Positions 5,380 to 11,488 of a stretch of 40,354 nucleotides of DNA are shown here, piece by piece. The notes under the pieces were generated by a model. It worked only from the letters and a program-made list of their open reading frames with translations. It did no database searches and was not told the DNA's origin. The position numbers and the translations under genes are program-made. Positions within the stretch are counted from its first letter, which is position 1, and each line of letters starts with the position of its first letter. This DNA comes from Lachnospiraceae bacterium (GTDB taxonomy: Bacteria > Bacillota > Clostridia > Lachnospirales > Lachnospiraceae). Location: contig JAFZNO010000074.1 in assembly GCA_017552985.1 (NCBI GenBank), forward strand, positions 1 through 40,354. The letters are read 5' to 3'.

Positions 5380-7338
5380 TTACTGTCTTATAGGCTTTGC
5401 AAAGTCGTTAATAATATTTAATTTAACTTCTTTAGAATCTTTGTAAAAATCATGTCTGTTTCTATAAGGGTTGGATCCCTCAAAATATTCCTTACACTGC
5501 CTGTATAGATCCGGATGATTTGTTGACGTTAATGCTTTTAATTCCGTTGTATTAACGTCAGCATAATCTGCTGCATAATCCTTCTTCGCCTGAAGCCATT
5601 CTGCCGCAGAAGACATCGGGCCAGTTGCAGAACATACCTTGTCAATTATGTCCAAAGGTGCGACGTAAGGAATCAGTCCAATCAGAGTCTTTCTGCGATT
5701 TGCCGCAATCTCGTCAGGAGTAAGGAATCTTTCACCAACTAGCATCATATATTGCATTACGTTTGCATGGCACAGATTGCACTTACCCGTACGCACATAT
5801 ACGTAATACTGTTCTTGATAATACAAGGCTTCGCCGGTTACGGGATCGATTTCAACCTGCTTTTCCCCTTTAAATTTATCGTAATAGTAATTCCACTTTG
5901 TCACGTTATCAGAACAATATGAGGTCTTAAAATATCCACATCTGCTTCCGCTACTATCCTCACAAATGTGATAATGAATGCCCTTAAGGTCGCCAGAACC
6001 ATTAACGTAGGTATACACTTTCTCATTATGCGGCAAATCTTTTATCCAAGATTTGCAAGTATCACAATACTGCTGGTGAGTGGAAGCATCAATTTCTAAT
6101 ATAGCCCTGTCTTGAAACTTATGAGCCTGGGTGGCCTTAGCGACTTGTGTTTCCGTTTTTTTACACTTCTCGCATTTCCTGCTTTTGGTACCATCCACGC
6201 ATGGGTACGTTTGTTTCGTAACCCAATCTCCCCATTTATGACCTGTCTTCTCAATCGTGACTTTGGAGTTCGGCTTTTCTTTTTTACAAACACTGCACTG
6301 TTCAACAGTATAACCATTCTCCGTGCAGGTAGCTGCCTTAGTCACCTTAGTATACTTATGTCCAGTCGCCTCGCACTTCGTATATACTTTGAAATCGATT
6401 TGGCAAATCATCACGTCCGTACCGTCACAAGTCTTTACGTAAATATATGCAGAATATGATCCGACTGCCAAAGACTTCGTGGGGATGCTTCCGCTATATC
6501 CATTTCTGCTTAGCACCGTTTGGTGAATTCTGCCATTCTTGTAGTATTTCTCGCGCGCCCCCGACAAATCAGGGCGTTCACAAGCATTTAGCGTTCCCTG
6601 CAGTACAGACGCAGATGCGCCAGCTTTGGTAACCTTGTAATAATATGACGAGCTTCCCTGATCATGGATAATCCATCCACTTATGGGAATATTGAACGCG
6701 GCTTTTTCCTGAATCTTTTCAGGATAGCTAACCTTGCTGGGGGTAGAGAACTTATGGGTCTTACCCACGTTCGGATCAGGAGCGTCATTACAAGTAACGT
6801 AAGTATTCGTCTTAATGCTTTTCGTTACGTTCATGGTATACTCGGCAATCTTATATCCTTTGCCGTTGTCAGAGCGTACTGCTTCCACAACAACTCTCCA
6901 CTTTCCGACTGTCATCCAAGACGTATCAAAATTCTTTAATTGCCATCCGTTATTTTTAATTTTATAACCCATCTTCGAGATTAGATCAGACATTCCTGAG
7001 TTAGGCGGATAGCCGTAGTTGAACTTGGTAATCTTCTGGCTCTTCTGTAGTTGCTCATTATAATAAAAATGGATATTATAATCTTTCACTTCAACTGTCG
7101 AAAGATGCCAACCTTCGAAGGTGACCTTTTCACTTCTGTAAACGTTAAAGGTTCCCTGATCGTAAGGTATCTTAAGGTTTTCCGTTGGGAAAACGGCGTC
7201 ATTGGCCTGTGCCGGCTCTCCAATACACGTCATATACTTGTGAGCCGCTTTAGACGTAAAACCGCAAAGGCTGAAAAGTACACAAACCATCGCGGCAAAT
7301 AATACCCGTGAAGCACATCGCATCCTTATTTTTTTCAT
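5380..7338 (-). CDS. Secreted protein with CxxC/'GH-W' zinc-ribbon-like modules
   Basis: A 652-residue exported protein. An N-terminal signal peptide (basic MKKIRMR, hydrophobic core 11-26, likely cleavage after SKA-A near 31) is followed by two beta-rich stretches (about 45-175 and 195-320). A cysteine module region (321-432) comes next, with ATCTENGYTVEQCSVC, a GHKWG motif and CEKC and CDTC pairs. Such CxxC-GHxW modules recur in secreted proteins of gut Clostridia, where their role is not established; metal binding is possible. The C-terminal 200 residues hold more CxxC pairs (e.g. CNLC) and then a charged tail without a sorting signal. The start has a ribosome site TAGGAGAGGG. It is monocistronic, with a terminator at 5314-5351. 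The same module type occurs in the gene at 39732. Confidence 0.75.
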   Translation of the reverse strand: MKKIRMRCASRVLFAAMVCVLFSLCGFTSKAAHKYMTCIGEPAQANDAVFPTENLKIPYDQGTFNVYRSEKVTFEGWHLSTVEVKDYNIHFYYNEQLQKSQKITKFNYGYPPNSGMSDLISKMGYKIKNNGWQLKNFDTSWMTVGKWRVVVEAVRSDNGKGYKIAEYTMNVTKSIKTNTYVTCNDAPDPNVGKTHKFSTPSKVSYPEKIQEKAAFNIPISGWIIHDQGSSSYYYKVTKAGASASVLQGTLNACERPDLSGAREKYYKNGRIHQTVLSRNGYSGSIPTKSLAVGSYSAYIYVKTCDGTDVMICQIDFKVYTKCEATGHKYTKVTKAATCTENGYTVEQCSVCKKEKPNSKVTIEKTGHKWGDWVTKQTYPCVDGTKSRKCEKCKKTETQVAKATQAHKFQDRAILEIDASTHQQYCDTCKSWIKDLPHNEKVYTYVNGSGDLKGIHYHICEDSSGSRCGYFKTSYCSDNVTKWNYYYDKFKGEKQVEIDPVTGEALYYQEQYYVYVRTGKCNLCHANVMQYMMLVGERFLTPDEIAANRRKTLIGLIPYVAPLDIIDKVCSATGPMSSAAEWLQAKKDYAADYADVNTTELKALTSTNHPDLYRQCKEYFEGSNPYRNRHDFYKDSKEVKLNIINDFAKPIRQ

Positions 7339-8503: not shown

Positions 8504-9514
8504 TTAACGTACTTTTACGAGTGCTTCCGTTGTGGTCACGGAGTTTCCATTTCTATCCTTAATAACGCACCTTAATCTCATGCCGTTTGTGGTTGCATTT
8601 GCCTTAATTGCCATTTTGGTCGTGTTACAGCCACTAAAATTTGTTCCTTCCGTGCAATCTCTCCAAACATTGGAAGTGGTATTGCAATACTGCCACTGAT
8701 AGGTCAATTTGCCCTTGCCGATTGCAATGGCTTCAACGTAATTTGTCCATCCGGCAGGCGATATAATGGTGCTAACTGGCTGCCGTTTAACATAAATCTT
8801 GTCTTTTACAATTCTTACTTCCTTCGCATACTCCTTGTATATGTTTCCGGTCTTGCTCACTTTATACGTTTGATATATGGAATCATCCATTACCGTTGCG
8901 TCCTCAGGCGTTACCAATAATCCATCAATACATATGGCCTCAAAGAATAGCATTGCTTCGCTTTGGGCTTTAACATGCAAATTACTGTTGAATACGATCA
9001 ACGATTCAAAACAACGTGAATTGGAGTAACCAATGGTTTTTAAATCAGAACCACATATTCCCGTTCCCGCTTGTATGTTTATGTCTATGTCAATACTCGC
9101 AATGCCAAGCAAACTGTCTGTCACCATAATCGCTGCTCCATTGCTCGGTTTTCCGGTAAAATAGAGCTTTCCCTTGCCAGTGATTACCGTGGACCCTTTC
9201 AAAACAAGTCCGCTATTGTAGAACGACGTATCAGCCATAACGTTAATAGTTAACCCATTAACAGTACTTGTCACCGTGGTATTGTTGAAATTGTTGCCCA
9301 ATAAATACAAAGTTTTCGCATCTGCATTGTAAGACAGCTTGTTATTCCTGTAGGATCGGTCTCCACGAATCTGAAGATCACCTACCCAGATAAATTCAGC
9401 GTGTTGTGCGGCCTTAGCGTTTGTTTCCGGCACCAAAACCAACAGAATAAACACGAACGCCATCATATAACCCAGGATTTTTTTTAACAATTTCGTGGAC
9501 ACTACTCTTTGCAT
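8504..9514 (-). CDS. Secreted protein with C-terminal Ig-like domain
   Basis: A 336-residue exported protein. The signal peptide has a long hydrophobic core (LGYMMAFVFILLVLV, about 14-28), with likely cleavage after the NAKA-A stretch near 35. The middle region (40-200) is rich in Thr/Asn/Gly beta-strand repeats and may form a beta-helix or beta-sandwich. Residues about 260-336 (LTYQWQY...GMRLRCVIKDRNGN...TTEALVKV) match the bacterial Ig-like fold common in clostridial surface proteins. No LPXTG or lipobox was seen. The ribosome site is GGGAGGAG. The gene ends 33 nt from the convergent alarmone hydrolase gene. Function not recognised; adhesion or surface display is only a guess. Confidence 0.65.
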   Translation of the reverse strand: MQRVVSTKLLKKILGYMMAFVFILLVLVPETNAKAAQHAEFIWVGDLQIRGDRSYRNNKLSYNADAKTLYLLGNNFNNTTVTSTVNGLTINVMADTSFYNSGLVLKGSTVITGKGKLYFTGKPSNGAAIMVTDSLLGIASIDIDINIQAGTGICGSDLKTIGYSNSRCFESLIVFNSNLHVKAQSEAMLFFEAICIDGLLVTPEDATVMDDSIYQTYKVSKTGNIYKEYAKEVRIVKDKIYVKRQPVSTIISPAGWTNYVEAIAIGKGKLTYQWQYCNTTSNVWRDCTEGTNFSGCNTTKMAIKANATTNGMRLRCVIKDRNGNSVTTTEALVKVR

Positions 9515-9639: not shown

Positions 9640-9673
9640 AAAAAAGGAGAGATTGCCGATAAACAATCTCTCC
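9640..9673 (-). terminator. Terminator of the radical SAM/small-protein cluster
   Basis: GGAGAGATTG (9646-9655) and CAATCTCTCC (9664-9673) form a perfect 10-bp stem with an 8-nt loop; on the minus strand it is followed by TTTTTTG (9645-9639). It ends transcription after the 108-aa protein gene. Confidence 0.85.
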
Positions 9674-9736: not shown

Positions 9737-10063
9737 CTATTCCGGAGCCGTCTCACCGTCCAAAATAAATAATTCCATGGTTTCTTCCGTGGTTTCTTCC
9801 GTGGTTTCTTCCGTGGTTTCTTCCGTTGTATCCTGCCCGCTTTCGCTGGATTCAATGCTTTCAGGCTCCGTGGGAATCATCTGCACGTCGCCTTCTAACA
9901 CGAACTCACTCGTGGGCTGTGAAACCTCTTCACCCGGCGGAAGTGTAGAAATCATTCCGTCCACGCTGACTCCAGGGCAACCAGTCAGAAGGGTCGTCGT
10001 AAGCACTGCCATGCCAATGGCATACGCAGGTTTTTTCAAATTGCGCTTAGGCTCTATTTTCAT
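9737..10063 (-). CDS. Small lipoprotein/peptide with TTEE repeats, partner of a radical SAM enzyme
   Basis: A 108-residue protein. The N-terminus MKIEPKRNLKKPAYAIGMA matches that of the 72-aa protein at 11201. A hydrophobic segment then ends in LLTGC, a good lipobox (Cys29), so lipid anchoring on the outer membrane face is likely. The mature part is acidic, contains PPGEE and EPES stretches and carries four tandem TTEE units followed by MELFILDGETAPE. Its only cysteine is the lipobox residue, so a Cys-thioether product is excluded. The start has an AAGGAGG ribosome site and its own upstream promoter block. It lies 76 nt after the radical SAM gene, whose protein may modify it. Function not known; an rSAM/lipoprotein pairing has been noted for Bacteroidetes (from memory), but family membership cannot be tested here. 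Confidence 0.65.
   Translation of the reverse strand: MKIEPKRNLKKPAYAIGMAVLTTTLLTGCPGVSVDGMISTLPPGEEVSQPTSEFVLEGDVQMIPTEPESIESSESGQDTTEETTEETTEETTEETMELFILDGETAPE
9777..9824 (-). repeat. 12-bp in-frame tandem repeat (4 copies) encoding TTEE
   Basis: GTGGTTTCTTCC repeats four times on the plus strand (9777-9788 with one change, 9789-9800, 9801-9812, 9813-9824), followed by a decayed fifth unit. Because the unit is 12 bp, copy-number change keeps the frame and only lengthens or shortens the acidic Thr/Glu stretch. Confidence 0.9.
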
Positions 10064-10094
10064 GTTATTTACCTCCTTGTTCCTCTGTTACCCA

Positions 10095-10121
10095 TATAGA
10101 CGCAGTTTAATTCAAAAGGTT
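10095..10121 (-). promoter_or_regulatory. ECF-like promoter block of the 108-aa lipoprotein gene
   Basis: On the minus strand AAAACC (10123-10118) with the AAC core at 10121-10119, a 16-nt spacer and CGTCTATA (10102-10095). No sigma-A -35 lies at the right distance. The following leader (GTAACAGAG..ACAAGG) is shared with the 72-aa gene. The resemblance is to Bacillus ECF promoters (AAC...CGTC); assignment is inference. Confidence 0.45.
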
Positions 10122-10139
10122 TTAAAGAATGACGTAATT

Positions 10140-11204
10140 TTATAATCCCATGAAATCAATAAATCTTTGGTCTCCCATGGCGTACATCTCGTCGCCAAGC
10201 CGGTCCGCAAGGGAGATCACCATGCGTTCATACTCGCACTGGACGGGAGCGATCATGTCGGGAGAGCCAGTATTCAGGATGTTGGCACATCCGCAGGAAT
10301 TCGTGCATCTTGCGGATAGGTCGCAGTCCTTACAGGGCGATGGCGTAAAGCATCTCTTTGCCATCTCCAGGCGTCTCGTCTCGTCAATGCCCTCGTAAAC
10401 GCTTCCGAGGTACCACTCCGGCTTATCCAGGAAAGACGTGCAGGGATAGAGGTTTCCGTCCCATGAAACCGCAAGCTGCCGGATCCCCAGATGGCAGTAT
10501 TTGGACGGGTTGATGCCCTTGATGAGTTCGGAAATCTTGTTGTGAAGGGGCGCCACTTTGAATTTGTCGCCCTTTTGGTACAGTTCCATCATGTAATCAG
10601 CAATCTGATCGAACTGTCCGCGCAGCACTTCAAAGGTTTCATCAGTCCAGGTCACCTTATCACCGTATGCGGGATTGATGATCATCTGAGGAAAGCCCAG
10701 ATCATGAACGAGCTTTACGGATTCGAAGAGTTTTCCACAGGCTTCCGGGGAAGCAACGCACATGGCAACGGTATCACAGCCATGCTCCATAAGGAGGCGC
10801 GCCTTGTCGACCATAAGGTCAAATGTCGCTCCTCCTTCTTTTGTCCTTCTGCAGTCATCCTGCATCGTGCCGTCAAAGGAAAAGCCGATCTGCATGTTTG
10901 CCCGCTTGGCCATGGAAGCGAACTCTTCATCGATCAGCGTTCCGTTGGTCGTGATCTTGGATAGGAACGGAATCCCCGTCTGACGGGACCTTTCGTCCGC
11001 CAGCTCCAGTGCATAATAGATCAGGTCTTTCTTGAGGAGTGGTTCTCCGCCAAAGAAGCAAATGCCGGCATTTTTCCCTCTCGAAAAGGCCAGTTCCACC
11101 GCCTTTTCGACGGTCTCCCTTGACATGTCTTGCGCGTGCTTTTCCCGCGTACAATAAGAACATCTCAGATTACAATTTTCCGTAAGGTATAAAGTCAGAT
11201 TCAT
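10140..11204 (-). CDS. Radical SAM/SPASM peptide-modifying enzyme
   Basis: A 354-residue enzyme. The radical SAM cluster motif CNLRCSYC (Cys11, 15, 18) is followed by GGEP (52-55). A SPASM-type C-terminal domain carries Cys237, GNLYPC (Cys255), CKDCDLSARCTNSC (Cys291, 294, 300, 304) and Cys323, enough for two auxiliary Fe-S clusters. SPASM enzymes typically modify ribosomal peptides or act as sulfatase maturases; the lack of sulfatase genes and the two small flanking genes favour peptide modification. There is no separate or N-terminal RRE (PqqD-like) recognition domain, since the protein begins directly with the SAM domain. Its ATG overlaps the stop of the 72-aa gene (ATGA), so the two are translationally coupled. 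The chemistry and the substrate are unknown. Confidence 0.85.
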   Translation of the reverse strand: MNLTLYLTENCNLRCSYCTREKHAQDMSRETVEKAVELAFSRGKNAGICFFGGEPLLKKDLIYYALELADERSRQTGIPFLSKITTNGTLIDEEFASMAKRANMQIGFSFDGTMQDDCRRTKEGGATFDLMVDKARLLMEHGCDTVAMCVASPEACGKLFESVKLVHDLGFPQMIINPAYGDKVTWTDETFEVLRGQFDQIADYMMELYQKGDKFKVAPLHNKISELIKGINPSKYCHLGIRQLAVSWDGNLYPCTSFLDKPEWYLGSVYEGIDETRRLEMAKRCFTPSPCKDCDLSARCTNSCGCANILNTGSPDMIAPVQCEYERMVISLADRLGDEMYAMGDQRFIDFMGL

Positions 11205-11419
11205 GCGTTTTCTTCCGTTGTTTCCACTGCTTCCGCTGCTTCAAATGCCGGTTCTGCAGAAACTATTCCACCCGTGTGGAGCAATTCATCAACCTGTTCC
11301 ATGACTTCTTCCTTAATCTCATGGATTGCAAAGCCGCCTGCCGCAAGAGCCGCCGCAGCTAATGCCACGCCAATGAGGTATTTAGGTTTTTTCAAATTGT
11401 GCTTTGGGTCTATTTTCAT
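11201..11419 (-). CDS. Small leader-bearing protein/precursor peptide upstream of the radical SAM enzyme
   Basis: A 72-residue protein. Its N-terminus MKIDPKHNLKKPKYLIG matches the 108-aa partner nearly residue for residue, then runs into an Ala-rich hydrophobic stretch ending in LAAGG, where the partner has the lipobox LLTGC. The rest (FAIHEIKEEVMEQVDELL...AFEAAEAVETTEENA) is an acidic amphipathic helix ending in a TTEE motif. There is no cysteine. It could be a membrane-anchored peptide, or a precursor cleaved after the Gly-Gly. The stop overlaps the start of the radical SAM gene. The ribosome site is GGGGGAG. Substrate of the adjacent enzyme is an inference from coupling and shared leader. 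Confidence 0.65.
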   Translation of the reverse strand: MKIDPKHNLKKPKYLIGVALAAAALAAGGFAIHEIKEEVMEQVDELLHTGGIVSAEPAFEAAEAVETTEENA

Positions 11420-11450: not shown

Positions 11451-11488
11451 TATAGACGCAGTTTATCCCAAAAAAGTTCTCTTGTCAA
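11451..11488 (-). promoter_or_regulatory. Promoter block of the 72-aa protein/radical SAM genes
   Basis: Two readings overlap. A sigma-A type: TTGACA (11488-11483), 17 nt, TAAACT (11465-11460). An ECF type: GAAC core (AAC 11478-11476), 17 nt, CGTCTATA (11458-11451). Only the second half (TAAACTGCGTCTATA and the GTAACAGAG leader) is conserved at the 108-aa gene, where the TTGACA is missing, which favours the ECF-like reading. Confidence 0.5.

Follow-up and report, generated by a model that had tools for sequence, protein, structure and literature searches.

The window analysed here, a stretch of 40,354 nt from a Lachnospiraceae bacterium (assembly GCA_017552985.1, contig JAFZNO010000074.1, positions 1 to 40,354) to which all coordinates refer, carries on its minus strand a compact operon that encodes, in order, a 72-aa protein (P0003), a radical S-adenosylmethionine (SAM) enzyme with a SPASM domain (P0002) and a 108-aa lipoprotein (P0001). 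By a check of the open reading frames (ORFs), those of P0003 and P0002 overlap by 4 nt and P0001 begins 76 nt after P0002. A first reading of the DNA made without database searches (the sequence-only reading) had singled out the two small proteins as sharing a leader and flanking a radical SAM/SPASM enzyme; both the ORFs and the cysteines bear this out, the common N-terminus being MKI[DE]PK[HR]NLKKP.Y.IG. The gene set appears to represent a so far undescribed route to the chemical modification of surface-displayed proteins. As judged from sequence comparison, it is probably a radical SAM operon of the type that makes ribosomally synthesized and post-translationally modified peptides (RiPPs), with products that stay on the cell surface and with cysteine-independent chemistry on V-x-[L/Y]-x-G-[D/E/G] repeats. 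Four observations carry this reading: the linkage of the genes, the restriction of the leader, the enrichment of the repeat in the group of the window and in several further clades, and the cysteine pattern of the enzyme.

P0002 contains the radical SAM motif CxxxCxxC (C11, C15 and C18) and all seven canonical SPASM cysteines (C237, C255, C291, C294, C300, C304 and C323), with an eighth, C306, in the same region, and is matched above gathering scores by the Pfam models PF04055 (Radical_SAM) and PF13186 (SPASM). Its top NCBIfam match is the PapB model (NF047865), at 195.8 bits against a cut-off of 340, and it falls below the cut-off of every one of the best 25 of 89 matching NCBIfam models, in keeping with the earlier suggestion that the enzyme belongs to no class that could be named. 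Seven matches in PHROGs are mainly to general radical SAM families. For an AlphaFold model with a predicted local distance difference test (pLDDT) score of 93.9, the nearest solved folds are CteB (template modelling (TM) score 0.81-0.83), then the anaerobic sulfatase maturase anSME (0.80) and ChlB (0.75-0.77). Residue 3 of P0002 aligns with residue 99 of CteB; the first ~98 residues of CteB have no counterpart, and therefore a fused RiPP recognition element (RRE) is not evident.

Relatives of the enzyme were found in 17 of 392 genomes of the order (E <= 1e-40) and in 8 of 397 genomes of the taxonomic family (at 1e-60); with 80 loci from a further scan of genomes (the best 80 of 548 relatives), and after 4 duplicates were dropped, 101 distinct enzymes were available, some of them nearly identical (for example L055-L058). 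Many are from gut and rumen Clostridia. Among 36 genomes of the same genus no family member was found, the one match (L006) lacking C306 and clustering with the comparison rows. In a tree from which the incomplete enzymes L062, L096 and L105 were left out, and in which the comparison rows labelled SCIFF bear our own labels, the window enzyme sits on a long branch (0.85) and falls in a supported group of 37 members (99/93), of which those with names are labelled Oscillospiraceae, Lachnospiraceae, Clostridiales or uncultured Clostridia. Two family members, L130 and L132, are on contigs labelled Treponema and Bacteroidota, which may reflect either horizontal transfer or mis-binned contigs of metagenome-assembled genomes (MAGs). 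A search with PapB of 398 genomes of the phylum gave matches in 300, all under the cut-off, and the 30 resulting loci served as comparison only. A scan of viral contigs gave no match; a plasmid search returned 158 records, and the 20 listed were all below 30% identity.

The leader accompanies the enzyme across the family. Leader profile A3, built from 18 leaders and searched against the 7726 ORFs of the 101 loci, matched 78 proteins at E < 0.1 in 56 loci, all on the strand of the enzyme gene, 52 within 60 nt of it and the farthest at 2349 nt; 60 of the 78 lie outside the model. One leader-bearing protein is present in 41 of these loci, two in 10, three in 4 and five in 1. With 35 further loci at which reading by eye picked out divergent leaders, most of them Y-x-x-P-x-[Y/I/L]-P in form, a leader-bearing protein adjoins the enzyme in 91 of 101 loci, and the recurrence of the pair in other Clostridia, which the sequence-only reading had proposed as a check, is borne out. 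The tag stands ahead of a Sec or lipoprotein signal. A genetically linked precursor with a conserved leader and a variable core is one mark of a RiPP system, modification of the core being the other, and the first of these marks is found here.

It is extremely improbable that P0001 and P0003 are an ordinary pair of lipoproteins to which the neighbouring radical SAM gene bears no relation, and that the start they share is a mere signal peptide. Both small proteins do possess a typical hydrophobic segment, and weak leader matches occur in 42 further genomes of the 397 from the taxonomic family; however, the most conserved stretch precedes the hydrophobic segment, the best weak match reaches only 8.8e-5, 25 of the 49 weak matches listed start at model position 13 or later (that is, in the hydrophobic part), and the association recurs across many loci. 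Matches below 1e-10 in the 397 genomes number three, all beside the enzyme (two in the window and one in G340) and all included in the profile model. An ordinary signal peptide was rejected as the explanation of the leader on this control, in which the close-group profile confines the leader to the neighbourhood of the enzyme.

Other shared genes were sought by clustering 18 neighbourhoods with BLAST. The enzyme is present in all 18 and a leader-bearing lipoprotein in 14, to which reading adds the window, L030 and L031, L042 having none. No RRE, transporter or protease is common to the 18 neighbourhoods, as had been noted for the gene cluster of the window by itself; the next-largest group of neighbours, in 6 of the 18, consists of ABC-type ATPases, whose positions are scattered.

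The precursors of the window have no Pfam, NCBIfam or PHROGs model above cut-off, and in PHROGs neither P0001 nor P0003 has any match. P0001 has a single cysteine, C29, within the lipobox LLTGC, and P0003 has none; past the signal both are free of cysteine. By pattern matching, P0001 has the signal and lipobox cysteine of a lipoprotein, and P0003 lacks the latter. The sequence-only reading had set this lipobox against a Gly-Gly at the same place in P0003. The lipobox stands, but the Gly-Gly is better read as what is left of a lipobox than as a site for a double-glycine protease, because 73 of the 74 precursors of the close group have a lipobox-like cysteine there (by a loose pattern). The same count makes a membrane-displayed product, also foreseen at the outset, likely. 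P0003 is similar to precursors of a second subtype, in which a TAGIV-like motif lies close to the C-terminus and whose gene often comes directly before that of the enzyme (examples are at L065, L068, L076, L077 and L078).

Past the signal, the 74 close-group precursors share the element V-x-[L/Y]-x-G-[D/E/G]-[V/A/I]-x-[V/I], hereafter the core. A matrix trained on the same set finds 277 sites in 72 of the 74, against 13 in shuffled sequences (maximum 22 in 50 shuffles). Counted by the plain pattern [L/Y/I]xG[D/E/G], there are 205 occurrences, spread over 64 of the 74 precursors, where shuffling leaves 28 (sd 5). With the window kept outside the training set, P0001 has two core sites whose summed score beats 5000 of 5000 shuffles; their number was equalled in 26 of 5000 (37 in a repeat run). 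In a held-out test, the matrix was trained on 71 sequences with the window and L118 removed, and groups were sorted by reading before sites were counted. Eleven precursors of clades without a training member have 37 sites against 2.3 shuffled (maximum 7 in 200 shuffles), and none of the eleven is without a site; four kin of L118 have 20 against 1.1, and two L133 precursors have 3 against 0.1. Ruminococcus-type precursors (L093, L094, L097, L101, L102, L105 and L107) have a second, C-terminal domain, FYDG...DWG...FVDIS-like, past their LxG repeats.

The sequence-only reading had both small proteins ending in TTEE-type tracts and looked to TTEE for a possible target. The tract of P0001 (residues 79-94), however, is not terminal, since MELFILDGETAPE comes after it, and TTEE is probably not the target; it was rejected as core on family comparison, being present in only 7 of 74 precursors and encoded in the window by a 12-bp DNA tandem repeat, whereas [L/Y]xG[D/E] recurs in the group of the window and in several further clades. 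TTE triplets do exceed the shuffled number (39 against 16, in 22 of 74 precursors). We read the tract as a probable spacer.

A second kind of substrate is found in a distant branch of 14 enzymes that form one clade (100/100), three of which match contigs named Defluviitaleaceae and one of which is from a Treponema-labelled contig. Thirteen of the 14 (not L042) accompany larger leader-bearing lipoproteins or secreted proteins with HxGG...(F/Y)..TE motifs. Their domain had no match in Pfam, NCBIfam or PDB in the cases tested, and a fold search with a model of one such lipoprotein (pLDDT 78, moderate) gave no match at E <= 0.001. A common ~150-aa domain, HxGG...YVVHLTEQEA..., is seen in L033, L038, L043 and other lipoproteins of the branch. 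A domain like the N-terminal domain of copper amine oxidase is present by reading at L039:48-1136, L034:5035-6510, L035:9072-10256, L040:3065-5475 and L045:2414-3592, and by a Pfam match in one distant-branch precursor (the same protein is in L022). The precursors of L035, L039 and L045 keep the leader and lack the lipobox cysteine, which disfavours that cysteine as the modified site. L110, of the sister pair of the branch, has one precursor with the cores YLDGDV, MLEGEP and PLAGAP followed by the C-terminal domain known from the distant branch, and a neighbouring precursor of the form HGEGTG with a similar C-terminal end; it appears to bridge the LxG-core and distant-branch kinds of substrate.

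The pathway may be pictured as follows. P0003 and P0001 would be made with the N-terminal tag MKIxPKxNLKKPxYxIG before a Sec signal, which in P0001 ends in the lipobox. P0002 would bind the tag directly, without an RRE, ahead of export, and its 5'-deoxyadenosyl radical would modify the V-x-[L/Y]-x-G-[D/E/G] repeats without a cysteine thiol. After Sec export, the lipoprotein signal peptidase (Lsp) would cut before the lipobox cysteine and remove tag and signal together, so that a lipid-anchored, modified repeat would be left on display. The Sec, Lsp and display steps are suggested by the presence of the lipobox and the absence of any other shared neighbour gene, and removal of tag and signal at once by Lsp would account for the lack of a transporter, protease or RRE gene common to the loci. 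P0003, which has no lipobox, might be released by another peptidase or remain as a membrane-anchored peptide. If the core is the target, an oxidative carbon-centred change near the invariant Gly and the Leu or Tyr at position -2 (for example a short cross-link or a desaturation) is a tentative first choice, and epimerization of the core is an unlikely, next-ranked guess. In Cys-dependent epimerases, a cysteine serves as hydrogen donor; an enzyme of this kind is disfavoured here, the near-invariant cysteines being cluster candidates only (C49 is present in 65 of 101 enzymes and C118 in 58 of 101). The more specific proposal, that gut and rumen Clostridia possess a radical SAM system with Cys-independent chemistry on xLxG[D/E] repeats of Sec-exported lipoproteins, with Lsp as the sole leader peptidase and with one clade, of a different substrate type, lacking auxiliary cluster I, has slightly less than an even chance of being correct in all its parts.

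Several points weigh against modification of the core repeats. The chemistry rests on inference throughout, and P0002 must act before Sec export although no protecting partner is seen. No precursor could be recognised at five loci (L042, L053, L089, L106 and L109); L054 has Cys-rich peptides in place of one, and four loci cut by contig ends (L067, L086, L095 and L100) are without a precursor call. The leader profile misses divergent leaders of enzyme-bearing genomes such as G460 and G501, and the restriction of the leader is for this reason established for the close group only. The core of P0003, LHTGGIVSA, is marginal, as 409 of 5000 shuffles (428 in a repeat run) did as well. A core common to the whole enzyme family was rejected: 27 leader-bearing precursors of the HxGG/globular kind have 12 core sites against 8.4 shuffled (maximum 17), which is chance level, so the LxG core appears to be limited to the window's group and several other clades, and this type of enzyme seems to work with at least two kinds of substrate. 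In its alternation the core also looks like a plain beta strand and turn, and it could be a structural repeat that goes unmodified. Finally, 49 of the 74 precursors carry cysteine after the lipobox, and 16 such cysteines sit exactly five residues past the core Gly (at offsets 4, 6, 7 and 8 the counts are 3, 1, 3 and 1).

It may accordingly be asked whether the pairing and the leader are real while the xLxG repeats are structural or ligand-binding and the enzyme alters something else, be it a residue of a domain, the leader or another position. The strand-turn-strand reading (hydrophobic at -4, -2, +2 and +4), the absence of a constant reactive side chain from the core (position +1 is acidic in 170 of 277 sites) and the leader-bearing HxGG/globular precursors without LxG enrichment speak for this alternative. 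It is nevertheless rather unlikely, since in the group of the window and in several further clades it is this element that recurs past the signal of short precursors with little else in common, usually in multiple copies, like the repeat cores of some radical SAM RiPPs, and since the absence of the lipobox cysteine from the three leader-bearing precursors above makes that residue an improbable site.

The cysteines beyond the lipobox bear on thioether chemistry. The claim that cysteine is confined to the lipobox holds for the window proteins and fails elsewhere in the family; the claim that thioether chemistry is impossible was too strong, the cysteine pattern making it unlikely for the family but less so for Cys-bearing members, in some of which a role for cysteine is possible given their number and the peak at Gly+5. 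As an account of the window, a ranthipeptide or sactipeptide system that makes PapB-like or CteB-like thioethers and has lost its cysteines in this copy is very unlikely. It would fit PapB as the top NCBIfam match, CteB as the nearest structure (TM 0.83), the cysteines in 49 of 74 precursors and the Cys-rich peptides beside the sister enzyme L054, yet the score is well under the PapB cut-off, the window cores are Cys-free, and 25 of the 74 precursors, the window proteins included, have no cysteine after the lipobox; 24 of these 25 keep a loose [LYIT]xG.

The enzyme itself also argues against thioether formation. C237, C255, C291, C294, C300, C304, C306 and C323 are all present in 83 of 101 enzymes, and C306, in 83 of 101, is in none of the 38 rows for other SPASM relatives (at most 36 of them distinct, as L010 equals L182 and L011 and L012 look identical; L013 is poorly aligned). 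The 14 distant-branch enzymes lack C237, C255, C304 and C306 and keep the other four SPASM cysteines, whereas their sister pair, L110 and L114, has all eight. Of the rest, L062 and L096 are truncated, L053 (a distant outlier) lacks the same four, and L054 lacks C306 alone. According to PMC10470005, auxiliary cluster 1 (AC1) of PapB is bound by C352, C370 and C421 and auxiliary cluster 2 (AC2) by C408, C411, C417 and C440, and PapB stripped of AC1 is inactive in cross-linking. By spacing, the AC1 set maps to C237, C255 and C304 of P0002 and the AC2 set to C291, C294, C300 and C323. The three AC1-ligand equivalents are thus kept in P0002, in an alignment by spacing, with C306 added as a fourth candidate, and the four jointly missing cysteines are the auxiliary cluster I (AuxI) set plus C306, because the PapB ligands map so. 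We infer that C306, beside the last AuxI ligand, may be a fourth ligand that closes the site at which PapB takes the substrate thiol; the eighth cysteine would then speak against thioether chemistry. Arg372 of PapB (PMC9413430) maps by spacing to Ser257 of P0002, which points the same way. The existence of a clade without the four cysteines does not prove AuxI dispensable for the chemistry of the window, because the substrates of that clade are of a different kind.

A protein-cofactor or formylglycine-type maturase that acts on one lipoprotein residue, as anaerobic sulfatase maturases do, has also to be considered, given that anSME is among the nearest structures (TM 0.80) and that the larger precursors have globular domains. 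Such a maturase is scarcely probable: several precursors are short and consist of repeats only, and P0002 reaches 94.9 of the 349 bits that the sulfatase maturase model requires. Cysteine-independent modification of the core repeats remains the preferred reading.

The features of the operon are collected in Table 1. With a promoter-like site 5' of P0003 and a strong terminator 3' of P0001, it looks like a self-contained operon. The pattern of the 46-nt elements that precede P0001 and P0003 occurs at two sites in the genome, both in the window; the pair could have a regulatory role common to both genes or be left over from a gene duplication, and the two precursor genes look like duplicates that have kept the leader and upstream region while the remainder diverged. 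Downstream of the operon, two proteins with signal-like starts are encoded on the same strand (5380-7338 and 8504-9514). An Rfam scan of the window at gathering scores found nothing but one tRNA.

Table 1. Coordinates of the operon and its features in the window
Feature	Position	Strand	Basis or remark
Sigma-70-like promoter, TTGACA + 17 nt + TAAACT	11460..11488	-	Consensus match only
Upstream element of P0003	11428..11473	-	38/46 nt identical to the P0001 counterpart
P0003, 72-aa precursor without lipobox, TAGIV-like subtype	11201..11419	-	
P0003 putative recognition leader, residues 1-17	11369..11419	-	Leader profile
P0003 single candidate core LHTGGIVSA, marginal alone	11255..11281	-	Core matrix
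P0002, radical SAM/SPASM enzyme, 354 aa	10140..11204	-	Eight SPASM-region cysteines
Upstream element of P0001, paralogous to the P0003 element	10072..10117	-	
P0001, 108-aa lipoprotein precursor	9737..10063	-	
P0001 putative recognition leader, residues 1-17	10013..10063	-	Leader profile
P0001 lipobox LLTGC, C29	9977..9991	-	Pattern
P0001 core 1, FVLEGDVQM	9878..9904	-	Held-out score 10.2
P0001 TTEE x4, probable spacer	9782..9829	-	From 12-bp DNA tandem repeat 9773-9826
P0001 core 2, FILDGETAP	9743..9769	-	Held-out score 6.2
Intrinsic terminator, 12-pair stem then TTTTTT	9646..9673	-	Pattern match

Several described systems resemble this one in part. PapB shares with P0002 the radical SAM and SPASM domains and two sets of auxiliary-cluster cysteines, and its system shares repeat cores and leader guidance (PMC10470005 and PMC9413430). 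P0002 is the shorter enzyme (354 aa against about 55 kDa; PMC10470005) and differs from PapB in having C306 and in having no Arg at the R372 position, and P0001 and P0003, unlike the PapB system, combine Cys-free cores with a signal of Sec or lipoprotein type. The SCIFF maturase CteB (TIGR03974; PDB 5wgg and 5why), the nearest solved fold, is about 23% identical to P0002; it has the N-terminal ~98 residues that P0002 lacks and an Ala at the C306 position, and SCIFF, by its family name, is Cys-rich, whereas the substrates of the window are Cys-free past the signal. The P0002 system therefore has neither the N-terminal region before the radical SAM core nor the Cys-rich substrate that mark SCIFF maturases and sactisynthases. 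ChlB (PDB 9gm3 and 9gmc), is a SPASM RiPP enzyme of similar chain length and 17-18% identity; to judge by the titles of the entries, its structure was determined together with its precursor's leader. At L054:2-3236, a sister radical SAM enzyme is accompanied by four short Cys-rich peptides (MKKPEKEYEVEYP...) and, by reading, a subtilisin-like protease; the locus is probably a cluster of ranthipeptide type whose leader is related.

Sec signals are described as rare among RiPP precursors, but they occur in bufferins, and lipoproteins are predicted for about 16% of Buf2 (PMC12452194). Unlike the window system, bufferins depend on an iron-dependent MNIO enzyme with a partner protein, have Cys cores and bind copper. 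TvgA/TvgB (poly-cyclopropylglycine) likewise combines a radical SAM enzyme with short Gly-containing repeats, TVGG (PMC9062424), but the motif is another one and the five-gene cluster includes dioxygenase and peptidase/transporter genes.

By their short names, the NCBIfam models TIGR04133 (rSAM_w_lipo) and TIGR04134 (lipo_with_rSAM) likewise embody the idea of a radical SAM-lipoprotein pair, and presumably describe such a pairing of genes. A search of the window genome with TIGR04133 at E 1e-3 did not have the P0002 locus among its matches; TIGR04134 had no match in the genome, its positive control being silent too, which makes this weak evidence of absence. Another radical SAM gene of the genome, L013 (G000:C94:4277-5278), scores 288 bits to TIGR04133, against a cut-off of 425. 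A search of the open literature found no description of the family, which is weak evidence of absence because most subscription journals and bioRxiv lie outside its coverage. The family is not wholly without precedent, since Sec-exported bufferins and the TIGR04133/TIGR04134 pair exist.

If the proposal is correct, these bacteria display chemically modified repeat proteins that annotation has missed. The layout of tag, export signal and core would then require one dedicated gene besides that of the precursor, and would be easy to move and usable for the display of modified peptides. The clade without four SPASM cysteines, beside relatives that have them, is a natural test case for the role of auxiliary cluster I. 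The records at three loci that bear no MAG label, Ruminococcaceae bacteria AB4001, YRB3002 and YAD3003, are presumably isolates, in which the product could be sought directly.

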